Made by a program: the position numbers and the translations under genes
The notes under the pieces: generated by a model
What the model saw: the letters and a program-made list of their open reading frames with translations, nothing else
Told to the model about the DNA's origin: nothing
Database searches by the model: none
Shown here: piece by piece, positions 2,376 to 63,652 of the stretch
Numbering within the stretch: position 1 is the first letter of the stretch
Layout: each line of letters begins with the position of its first letter
NCBI RefSeq assembly: GCF_037081775.1
Contig: NZ_JBAMHQ010000001.1
Span: 2,046,001-2,110,000, forward strand
Source of the DNA: Haladaptatus sp. ZSTT2
GTDB lineage: Archaea > Halobacteriota > Halobacteria > Halobacteriales > Halococcaceae
DNA: 64,000 nucleotides
Direction of reading: 5' to 3'

Positions 2376-3644
2376 TTATGCTGTTGGCTCCACGCCAAAG
2401 ACGAGGAAGTAGCCCGTTCCGAGGAGGCCAACCACGGTTGCACTCGTGAATGCGAGCGTTGGCGACTGGCTGTAGAGGAGCCCGCCAACCGCCGCACCGG
2501 GCACGGTGAGAGCGTTTCTGAGTAAGTAGTAGGCGCCGGTCACTCGCCCGCCTGCGCCCGTTTTCGCGGGACCAACGATGAGCGCCTTGTGCGCGGGGAG
2601 TCCGGCAAAGCGCAGCCCCGAAAAGGCGAACACAAGCGCGACGAGCGCGGCGTCTGCGGGCACCGAAATCAGGAGTATCGGGGTGAGCGCGTACACCGAA
2701 AACCCGGTCGCAACGACCGGTTTCAGTCCGCGACGGTCTGCCACCCACGCGCTCGGGAGCATCACGAGCAGGGCAACCGCCATCTCGACGGCGAGCAGGA
2801 CGCCGAAGAAGGCTTCCGGGCGCAAGAATCCGATGACGGGGAGCCTCACGCTCACCTGCAACTGGTCGACGACGACGAGGACGAAAAACACGTGGACCAT
2901 GCCGTTTGCGAACCGGACGAGCGTATCCCCGACGAGCAGCGGCCGGAGTGGTTTCGGGAGCGCCGCGAGGTCTTCACGGACCGAGGCAAGCCCGCCCCAC
3001 GCCTTGCCAATCGTGTCGCCAGTCGGGTCGTAGAGGACGCGCTGGGCAACCGTCGCAAGGACGGCGAAGCCGATGGCGACGACCAACACCGCCTGAAAGC
3101 CGTCGAGGAGACCGACCGTGGCCGCGAAAATGGCCGTTGCAATGAGCGGGCCAAGCAGGAAGCCGACGCGGCGCACCACTTCGGTGGCCGCAAAACCGCG
3201 AGCGAGGTGGGCCGCATCGACGCTCTGTTTGACGAGCGCGAACGTCGCGCCGAGGCCGAGTGAGTTCCACGCTTGGACGAGCACGAGGCCGACGAACAGC
3301 CACGCCCATGCCGGAAGCGGGCCGCCGAGGCCGGGCGCGAGAAACCAGAGTACGAAGCCACCAACTGAGAGCACGCCGAACAGCGTGAGCGCGCGGCGCG
3401 TCCCGATGCGGTCGGAAATCGCCCCGCCGGGGTAGGGATAGACGGCCGCAATGAACTGCTTGAAACTCCCGAACACGCCGATGACGCCCGCACCCGCGCC
3501 GAGCGCCTGCAAGTAGGCGGCGATGTAGCGGTCGGTCATCTGGTATGAAAGGCTGAACGCGAGCATCGCAACCGACAACACGAGCACGTCGCGTTCGAGT
3601 CCTGCAACCTCACGGAGCGTCTCACGGACGCCGTCACCTGCCAT
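2376..3644 (-). CDS. MFS transporter
   Basis: 422 residues with about twelve hydrophobic segments and the MFS loop signature after the second segment (GGAISDRIGTRRALTLFG, about residues 73-90) and its echo after the eighth (SAWVADRRGLKP). The long central cytoplasmic loop at about 210-235 is acidic. Substrate cannot be told from the sequence. The start MAGDGVRETL gives a short cytoplasmic N-terminus before segment 1. It may be co-transcribed with the small membrane protein upstream. Confidence 0.9.
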   Translation of the reverse strand: MAGDGVRETLREVAGLERDVLVLSVAMLAFSLSYQMTDRYIAAYLQALGAGAGVIGVFGSFKQFIAAVYPYPGGAISDRIGTRRALTLFGVLSVGGFVLWFLAPGLGGPLPAWAWLFVGLVLVQAWNSLGLGATFALVKQSVDAAHLARGFAATEVVRRVGFLLGPLIATAIFAATVGLLDGFQAVLVVAIGFAVLATVAQRVLYDPTGDTIGKAWGGLASVREDLAALPKPLRPLLVGDTLVRFANGMVHVFFVLVVVDQLQVSVRLPVIGFLRPEAFFGVLLAVEMAVALLVMLPSAWVADRRGLKPVVATGFSVYALTPILLISVPADAALVALVFAFSGLRFAGLPAHKALIVGPAKTGAGGRVTGAYYLLRNALTVPGAAVGGLLYSQSPTLAFTSATVVGLLGTGYFLVFGVEPTA

Positions 3645-3683
3645 ACGACAGGTCAGGCCGCAAGCACGATAGCGGTTTTCACG

Positions 3684-3821
3684 CTACTGGCGTCTCGTCT
3701 CTTCGTCGTCCGCTTCGAGCCAGATGCGGTCGAACCACGCTGCCCGCCACCGCCAGCGAAGCCACTGGTGGACGGCGAGAATGGCGAAAAACGCCCCCAC
3801 GACCAGTAGGCTCAGGTCCAT
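3684..3821 (-). CDS. 45-residue single-pass membrane protein
   Basis: The reverse strand reads ATG (3819-3821) through TAG (3684-3686), 45 residues. Residues 3-17 (LSLLVVGAFFAILAV) form one membrane segment. A Trp/Arg-rich interfacial stretch follows (HQWLRWRWRAAWFDRIW), then an acidic tail ending in EADDEETRRQ. That layout, high-G+C codons and its position 39 bases before the MFS gene on the same strand support a real microprotein, perhaps a partner of the transporter. Function unknown. Confidence 0.65.
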   Translation of the reverse strand: MDLSLLVVGAFFAILAVHQWLRWRWRAAWFDRIWLEADDEETRRQ

Positions 3822-61398: not shown

Positions 61399-61465
61399 CT
61401 CTCGTCTAAAACTCTCACTGTCTTTTTCTGCTGATCAAACGTGTCTGAGCAAACGCACGCAGATT

Positions 61466-61489
61466 TATGGTATGATGTGGCGTACCATA
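61466..61489. repeat. inverted repeat with ten-base loop
   Basis: TATGGTA (61466-61472) and TACCATA (61483-61489), perfect seven-base arms, at the left side of the structured segment. Confidence 0.5.
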
Positions 61490-61635
61490 TGTTGTATCGG
61501 GAACCGCAAGGATACACCGAACGATCTGTTCCAGAAAATCTGATTTCAGAAAGTACGGAAGAGGTTAGGGGCAACAACTGAGTCTCTGTGAAAGGAGAAC
61601 GAAGTCAACGCTCCGAAGGAGAACCGAAATAACCC

Positions 61636-61665
61636 ACAAACGTTGCCTTCCGGAAGGCGCGTTGT
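61636..61665 (+). ncRNA. predicted stable hairpin
   Basis: ACAA(A)CG at 61636-61642 pairs with CGTTGT at 61660-61665, and GCCTT pairs with AAGGC around a CCGG loop; about eleven base pairs with small bulges. Whether it is transcribed is unknown. Confidence 0.35.
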
Positions 61666-61819
61666 GAAGGCCATGTAACGGATGGGGCGTAAGCATCATT
61701 CGTGAAACTGGGAAACCAGAAGAGCCGTAGAGGGGTATGGAAAACGTTTCCCGTTCGGGTCCTAATTGCGGCTCTCGGTTGCTATCTCTCCCCTTGAGTT
61801 TTATCTCTGGAATCCACAC

Positions 61820-62467
61820 TCACGTTTCGCTCGCTGCTAAATACTCGGTCAGCAACGACGGAAAATCCCGCCCTTTCAGATACCTGAGTCCAAACCCTTC
61901 TGCCCAGTGGATGATGCCCGTATCTTCGGTTACGACACCTGCTTCGAGTTCTCGGGCGAGGATGAGCAAGTCGAAGTCCTCGCGCGAATCGAGGATGCCC
62001 CGGCGCAGCGTCGAACGGTACTCTGAACGAAGGTCTGAGATGACTTTGTCGACTTCACTGAGCTGATCTCCAGTGTCAGAATCCCGCGACTCCTCGGCTT
62101 TTCGCACGGCTTTTTCAGAAACGCGCAGCCCTCTGTCTACACGATTGCTCATCTCTTCGATGAACTCGTAGACGATTTCTGCGGGAATCATCACCGTATA
62201 CCGGTCGGGATTTTTCTTGATGAGCCACGTGTTGAGCTTCGAGAGCACCTCCTCTGAGACCCCTCTGTCTTTGAGCATCCGCGAGAGTTCCTCGTAGACA
62301 GACGGTGGGATGTAACACGAGATGTGGAGTTTGAGCTTCGCTTCGGCAATGAGGTCTAACAGGCGGTCGACCGCCTGTTCTACATCTTCGTCGTCGTCGC
62401 GTATCTCCTCGGTGATGAACGTAGACGTGTCGAGCACGAAGCGTTGTTTCAACGGATAGTCCGCCAT
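61820..62467 (-). CDS. RNA-free ribonuclease P homologue (HARP, PIN-like)
   Basis: 215 residues from ATG 62467; an ATG seven codons upstream is the alternative. Formerly called RNA ligase partner protein. The family is typified by Aquifex Aq_880, which removes 5' leaders from tRNA precursors. Metal-binding aspartates D13 (VLDTS), D160, D164, D166 ([12 protein letters not shown]) and D182 (TEDTG) have the same spacing as D138/142/144/160 in Aq_880. The helical insert at about 90-150 is present. Haloarchaea also have RNA-based RNase P, so its role may be secondary. Confidence 0.88.
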
Positions 62468-62557
62468 CACCACCAGTTTGTCTCGCATGGCAATAGATAC
62501 CAGTGCTCTGGGCCACCCAACACGTTATTGGGCGTCGGCAGAGTAGTTGTGTATAAC

Positions 62558-63652
62558 ATGTCCAATATTGCGCCCTCGGAAGTCAGCGCACGACTCCGCG
62601 ACGGGGACGGCAGCCTCCACGTCCTCGACATTCGAAACCGTGACGAGTACGAAGAGTGGCACATCGAAGGGAGCCATAACATCCCCGTGTACAACTCGCT
62701 GAGCGCCGGGCAAACCCAAGCACTGCGAACTCGCTTGAACGAGATACCCGACGACGCAGAAATCGCGACCGTCTGTATCGCTGGTATCGTCTCCCAGAAG
62801 GCTGCTGCAGTCTTGCGCGATGAGGGTTACGACGCGAAGTCGATGGAGGGCGGCATGCGTGGCTGGGGAACCGTGTACGAACCCTACGACACCGGCGTTA
62901 CCGGACTCACCCAAATCGTCCGCCCGGGGACGGGTTGTCTCTCCTACGTGTTTGCGGACGACGGCGAGGCGCTCGTCGTAGACCCCGCGCTGCACGCCGA
63001 GATTTACCAGCAGTTCGCAGACAACAACAACCTCGACATCGTCGGCGTCCTCGACACTCACGCCCACGCAGACCACATCAGCAGTGGCCCCCGTTTCAGC
63101 GAGTATCTCGACGTACCCTACTACCTCTCTGCGACGGACGCCCACGACCTTTCGGGATACACCCCCGTCGAAGAAGGCGACACCATCGCCGTTGGCAGTA
63201 CCGACCTCGAAGTTTGGGAGACGCCGGGCCACACCCGCGGCAGCGTCGTGCTCCGCCTTGACGGGGCCATCCTCGCAGGCGACACCCTCTTCGTCCGGAG
63301 CGTTGGCCGCCCCGACTTAGAAGGCGGCACAGCCGAGGCAACAGAAGGGGCGAACCTCCTGTTCGACAGCCTCGACCGACTCGACTCGCTCTCCGACGAC
63401 ACGATGGTGTATCCGGGGCACTTCAGCAACGAGACCATCCGCCCCGTCGCAGACACCATCGCCGCGATTCGCGCGCGAAACGATCTGTTCGGTGTCGCGG
63501 ACAAATCCGACTTCGTCGAGACCATCCTCGCAGACCTGCCCGACACGCCGAACAACTACAACCAGATTAAGGCCATCAACACGGGCAAAGAGCCGCTCAC
63601 CCAGCAAGCCGCAGACTTAGAACTCGGCCCGAACAACTGCGCGTCGAACTAA
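62558..63652 (+). CDS. rhodanese-MBL fusion, persulfide dioxygenase-like
   Basis: 364 residues from ATG 62558. Residues about 1-105 form a rhodanese domain (VLDIRNRDEYEEWHIEGSHN) with Cys in TVCIAGIVSQ as active-site candidate. Residues about 120-330 form a metallo-beta-lactamase domain with THAHADHISSG, ETPGHTRGSV, AGDTLFVRSVGRPDLEG and PGHFS, the pattern of ETHE1-like persulfide dioxygenases. It would oxidise glutathione- or other low-molecular-weight persulfides to sulfite. Its stop is directly followed by an MFS start. Confidence 0.87.
   Translation: MSNIAPSEVSARLRDGDGSLHVLDIRNRDEYEEWHIEGSHNIPVYNSLSAGQTQALRTRLNEIPDDAEIATVCIAGIVSQKAAAVLRDEGYDAKSMEGGMRGWGTVYEPYDTGVTGLTQIVRPGTGCLSYVFADDGEALVVDPALHAEIYQQFADNNNLDIVGVLDTHAHADHISSGPRFSEYLDVPYYLSATDAHDLSGYTPVEEGDTIAVGSTDLEVWETPGHTRGSVVLRLDGAILAGDTLFVRSVGRPDLEGGTAEATEGANLLFDSLDRLDSLSDDTMVYPGHFSNETIRPVADTIAAIRARNDLFGVADKSDFVETILADLPDTPNNYNQIKAINTGKEPLTQQAADLELGPNNCASN

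Follow-up and report, generated by a model that had tools for sequence, protein, structure and literature searches.

What, if anything, is encoded in the 421-base gap (positions 61399-61819) that lies between an upstream gene, matched by profile to methylmalonate-semialdehyde dehydrogenase, and a downstream minus-strand HARP gene in Haladaptatus sp. ZSTT2? The gap was analysed as part of a window of 64,000 nucleotides, to which all coordinates refer. An earlier note had described it as A+T-richer than its flanks and without a conserved ORF, and had offered two readings, a non-coding RNA or the remnant end of an IS200/IS605-type element. Both descriptions were borne out, with a G+C of 0.45-0.54 in the segment compared to 0.61-0.68 in the upstream dehydrogenase gene (200-base windows) and with homologues of 275-297 nt or longer that carry frame-breaking indels. 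A small ORF of 30 codons (61490-61582) was rejected as a coding candidate, as it lies inside the RNA and its reading frame is not kept among homologues. On comparative evidence the segment is the gene of a predicted structured non-coding RNA of ~290 nt on the plus strand (window ~61492-61788), neither spacer nor the end of a mobile element, and the first of the two readings stands, with conservation over 45 genera, massive compensatory change and a predicted transcript.

Blastn with the segment found the conserved copies that the earlier note had suggested looking for: 61 of the 392 Halobacteriales genomes have a homologue, and so do two Halorussus plasmids, in both of which it is intergenic and adjoins a gene that is annotated as 'RNA ligase partner protein'. 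Alignment of 30 copies (MAFFT) defined an RNA of ~290 nt with about 50 invariant columns, and a covariance model (R1; 295 positions) built from this alignment matched 114/392 Halobacteriales genomes in 45 of 95 genera, most at E < 1e-20 and as a rule with one copy per genome, as in the source genome itself, where the segment sequence occurs once. A sensitive recheck brought the total to 114-116 of the 392. R1 also matched three genomes outside Halobacteriales, and a separate search with an exact pattern through ~85,000 prokaryote species hit 20 loci, which by name come without exception from haloarchaea or close relatives. Two tandem copies were observed in G201 (L108:3001-3298 and 3445-3742, minus strand), and a second, more divergent copy is present elsewhere in G265, G295, G306 and G372. 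Divergent homologues (L177 in G400, L178 in G409; G+C 33-39%) occur in a low-G+C family outside Halobacteriales, both near a gene which we take to be a TrkA-type potassium channel. In family f5 the RNA of L101, L104, L121, L133 and other loci has two genes in its vicinity, one for tRNA-Leu(CAA) and one whose start is presumably CetZ/FtsZ-like; ORF clustering around distant RNA copies gave mostly antisense ORFs, and the tRNA-Leu context in f5 was the only such context used. A phage or defence origin was considered and rejected, with no match to the RNA in viral contigs and no defence family matched by PADLOC.

The case for a conserved structure is comparative. In an alignment of 101 sequences fitted to R1, 94.4% of pair cells were standard, falling to 31-48% in controls with slid partners, and all five pairing measures beat 500 of 500 shuffles. 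The earlier note had held that decayed spacer would show no compensatory changes in homologous loci; here, both sides had changed in 59 of the 64 pairs. Because this alignment was fitted to the model, all column pairs were also ranked by corrected mutual information, and nearly all of the top 25 in this unguided ranking were model pairs or extensions of the P6 hairpin. Compensatory changes were already present in 42/64 pairs of the MAFFT alignment, which was not model-fitted. The folding energy of the single sequence was unremarkable (z = -1.5; 8/100 shuffles equally good) and was set aside as evidence. Long-range pairs that would break the nesting, as in a pseudoknot, had no convincing covariation in the mutual-information ranking.

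In the predicted fold a long closing stem joins the RNA ends around a branched interior with several hairpins, two of them with GNRA-like loops. The R1 match spans 61492-61788 (plus strand, as are all elements below), and the RNA is likely to start at 61491, give or take a few bases. The closing stem P1 pairs 61499-61523 with 61751-61776 over ~17 or more pairs, comprising helices 1-3 plus a covarying extension (61499-61504/61771-61776). It is followed by the variable hairpin P2 (61524-61565; helix 4, both-side changes in 8/8 pairs) and by the P3 arm (61569-61613), in which three short helices (helices 5-7) are separated by conserved internal loops. The 5' strand of P4 (61618-61621; helix 8) has its partner at ~61748-61751, and that of P5 (61629-61635; helix 9, both-side changes in 7/7 pairs) at 61732-61738. 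The P6 hairpin (61640-61662; helix 10) has covarying pairs at 61640-61648/61655-61662 and precedes a near-invariant motif, GAAGRCCAA-GTA (61666-61677), that was recognised by its invariant columns and includes one strand of P7 (61669-61671/61724-61726; helix 11). Two further hairpins are P8 (61678-61703; helix 12), with a GNRA-like GUAA loop at 61689-61692, and P9 (61708-61719; helix 13), here CUGG-GAAA-CCAG with a GAAA loop. The alignment shows P9 extended by ~60-90 nt in some genera; in one genus (L025, L026, L031, L034, L036) the extension consists of further stems, the core being unchanged. Of four stems proposed earlier, two are thus recovered with covariation support: the one at 61636-61665 is P6 (~61640-61650/61653-61662) and the one at 61708-61719, with its GNRA loop, is P9. 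The other two fell away. The palindrome at 61466-61489 spans the promoter, lies before the RNA starts and is missing from homologues, and the pairing of 61721-61727 with 61769-61775 is contradicted by the pairing of 61769-61775 with the 5' strand near 61500-61506 and of 61724-61726 with 61669-61671.

The comparison of 101 loci also revealed a probable BRE/TATA promoter (61457-61468, plus strand), A-rich at -35 to -31 and with TTTAT at -28 to -24 relative to model position 1. This fixed distance in 101 loci places the RNA start near 61491, and the RNA is predicted to have an archaeal promoter of its own. Beyond P1 the same 101 loci are enriched in T, which marks a pyrimidine/T-rich 3' end (61779-61806, plus strand) that is a probable terminator, and the limits of the element are accordingly better set at ~61456, at the BRE/TATA, to 61806.

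The RNA belongs to no known family among those searched. The covariance search against Rfam 15 that had been proposed earlier was run and matched no known family within the window at gathering score, nor did ARAGORN, so that tRNA, tmRNA and SRP RNA are without a match in window or segment. A relaxed Rfam search of the segment (E up to 5) returned only chance-level matches and no RNase P model, and seven homologous loci gave no RNase P RNA match at E up to 10. The canonical rnpB of the genome lies elsewhere (G000:C1:1871250-1871566; E 8e-56) and R1 has no match at that locus, which agrees with the earlier failure to place the segment as rnpB, SRP RNA or tRNA. The new RNA resembles RNase P RNA (RF00373 and the bacterial classes) in size, in its long end-closing stem, in its many invariant unpaired bases and in being linked to an enzyme that has RNase P activity; unlike it, the new RNA matches no RNase P model even at relaxed E-values. 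The near-invariant AAGGCCAA-GTA motif is reminiscent of a stretch that we take to be conserved in the RNase P RNA of bacteria, a kinship that no model match supports, and a cryptic rnpB, to which both AAGGCCAA and the closing stem had pointed, was rejected given the Rfam result and the separate rnpB. No guide-RNA family of Rfam (C/D, H/ACA) scored above cut-off in the window, the segment or the seven homologous loci. Hairpins beside a low-G+C gap had suggested that the segment is decayed spacer or else the omega RNA at the end of an IS200/IS605 element, and omega RNAs, likewise structured intergenic RNAs in haloarchaea, are known in archaea (PMC12558985). Unlike these, the new RNA is single-copy, no transposase, tnpA or tnpB gene lies beside it in the window (its neighbours are the methylmalonate-semialdehyde dehydrogenase and HARP genes), and its structure is kept over families; covariation throughout and single copies already refute this reading, to which we attach next to no probability. 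A literature search of open-access papers found no description of a HARP-linked RNA, and the transcript could already stand under an sRNA number in subscription literature or unpublished transcript lists. By these searches the ~290-nt RNA forms a class of salt-loving archaea that is strongly conserved, missing from Rfam 15 and apparently not described before.

The downstream gene (61820-62488, minus strand) is convergent with the RNA at a distance of ~30 bp and encodes HARP, a protein-only RNase P homologue or 'RNA ligase partner protein', so that its earlier description as RNase P-like was correct. The protein matched TIGR03875 (E 3e-78; 261.9 bits, cut-off 95.3), NF003341 (above cut-off) and PF08745 (PIN_5; 264.6 bits, cut-off 27), and its nearest solved structures are of RNA-free RNase P (7e8j_A; E 8.6e-40, residues 15-214). 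The homology covers the whole domain, including the conserved acidic residues, which have a catalytic role. Farther along (62558-63652, plus strand), a protein with a rhodanese plus a metallo-beta-lactamase fold is encoded, for which all NCBIfam models were below cut-off. A harp deletion in H. volcanii grows normally (PMC10941002).

The RNA class is linked to HARP by location and distribution. HARP was found in 162/392 Halobacteriales genomes, and in 106 of the 114 RNA-positive compared to 56 of the 278 RNA-negative genomes (both 106, RNA only 8, HARP only 56, neither 222; Fisher 1.4e-43, a test that ignores shared descent). RNA and HARP genes are separated by 19-170 bp in f1, f17, f5 (g40, g86), f4 (g88) and f13, the family of the source genome and Halorussus with its family being among these, and in two orientations, divergent and convergent. 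Such adjacency, seen in five or more families and in either orientation, indicates that the arrangement arose or was kept more than once. HARP is also present in all three RNA-bearing genomes outside Halobacteriales, which is supportive but weak since HARP already occurs in 72/177 genomes of the outside-order sample; HARP-bearing Archaeoglobus/Methanosarcina-type genomes had no RNA match near HARP. Most of the eight RNA-positive genomes without detected HARP are incomplete assemblies or weak matches. G237 (99% complete, 123 bits; L156) and G049 (99%, 89 bits; L163) are exceptions, with RNA and neither HARP nor ligase detected, which suggests that their copies, apparently intact or shortened, are relics or are used independently of HARP. 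These few RNA-only genomes, the separation of RNA and HARP by hundreds of kb in many genomes and the conserved tRNA-Leu neighbourhood in f5 would suit a non-coding RNA with a job of its own that shares the fate of HARP only through descent, co-mobilisation or common ecology. We consider this improbable in view of the repeated adjacency, the near absence of the RNA where HARP is missing and the lack of a match in viral contigs. About 50 HARP genomes have no detectable RNA, and some of these may hold diverged copies.

A second pattern involves the Rnl3 ligase (TIGR01209), which was detected in 116 of the 392 genomes, always with HARP and usually encoded adjacent to it, reproducing the association already reported by Seshadri and Gopalan (PMC12153264). 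When 40 of the RNA-negative HARP genomes were searched again at higher sensitivity (sixteen others stayed at standard sensitivity), one full (G173) and one truncated (G184) RNA copy were recovered. The HARP genomes then comprised 63 that have both RNA and ligase, 53 that have the ligase alone, 45 that have the RNA alone and a single one with neither, G382, an 85%-complete assembly with a HARP match of E 4.9e-27 compared to a typical ~1e-70. With RNA labels shuffled within families, 4.5 such genomes were expected compared to the one seen (p = 0.008), this permutation being the only tree-aware test among the genome-wide tests. Of 15 genera with ligase-less HARP genomes, 14 have the RNA in those genomes, and in the remaining one the genome concerned is incomplete; the source genome has RNA and HARP without ligase, and G400 has both without a full ligase. 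Haloferax volcanii, included as a control, has HARP and lacks the ligase, and a copy of the RNA is predicted for it, given that 45 of 46 Halobacteriales genomes of this kind carry one. RNA, HARP and ligase all lie within ~2.2 kb in G087 (f6) and G029 (f13). If diverged RNAs were missed, the link to HARP would be stronger and the RNA-or-ligase rule weaker. The text of PMC12153264, unlike the present data, names no RNA partner gene, and the new RNA is present in almost every HARP genome of the order that lacks the ligase.

The reading that we favour, at a probability of about 0.6, is that the RNA is a dedicated ligand of HARP for which Rnl3 is able to stand in. A ~290-nt RNA would be made from its own promoter and its two ends would pair into the closing stem; HARP, an oligomeric PIN-domain RNase encoded alongside, would bind it as a dedicated ligand; the RNA could act as a specific substrate, a scaffold or a decoy, occupying or steering the HARP nuclease; and Rnl3 could replace it. 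Binding by HARP, and the role of RNA and ligase as partial substitutes, are what we infer from comparative genomics. Speaking against it are the RNA-positive genomes without detected HARP, above all G237 and G049, the HARP genomes without detectable RNA, the lack of a match near HARP in Archaeoglobus/Methanosarcina-type genomes and the normal growth of the H. volcanii harp deletion. A related but distinct possibility, which we regard as less likely, is that the RNA is a substrate, trimmed by HARP at the base of the closing stem and circularised by Rnl3 where present, with HARP serving other RNAs in ligase-only species. Seshadri and Gopalan proposed such trimming and circularisation for C/D-box RNAs, Rnl3 is known to circularise RNAs (PMC9014305, PMC12153264), and the paired ends and the clustering of the three genes in two lineages suit such a pathway. 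Ligase handling may be common to both kinds of RNA, although a C/D-box sRNA is a short two-box RNA, compared to the ~290-nt multi-branched RNA here. The 45 genomes with RNA and HARP but without ligase are at odds with this pathway. So is the predicted start, which falls at the edge of the closing stem; a precursor would have hardly any leader to lose, and this mildly favours a binding partner or regulator over a precursor that is processed.

The same distribution would also fit a toxin-antitoxin-like arrangement, in which HARP cleaves tRNA or other RNA, the RNA occupies it as a decoy and Rnl3 repairs the cuts, either sufficing as antidote. Practically every HARP genome has RNA or ligase, the ligase always comes with HARP, and HARP has been placed in a VapC-like PIN group with many toxins among its members (PMC10941002). 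The same review judged an RNA-degrading role unlikely, HARP complements RNase P mutants through specific cleavage (PMC12153264), a ligase deletion in T. kodakarensis is cited in that paper as being without a growth defect, and PADLOC gave no match; we regard an antidote role as unlikely.

With HARP as the partner of a dedicated RNA, the ligase-less HARP genomes noted in PMC12153264 would be accounted for, and a large structured RNA class is added beyond Rfam 15. The RNA, which follows HARP from genome to genome and occurs in those that lack the ligase, is a concrete candidate ligand and a testable lead to the role of HARP in archaea. At roughly even odds, HARP in salt-loving archaea may be the protein half of a ribonucleoprotein or of an RNA-controlled system, in which the RNA would be obligatory unless Rnl3 is present, the whole forming one module with interchangeable partners.
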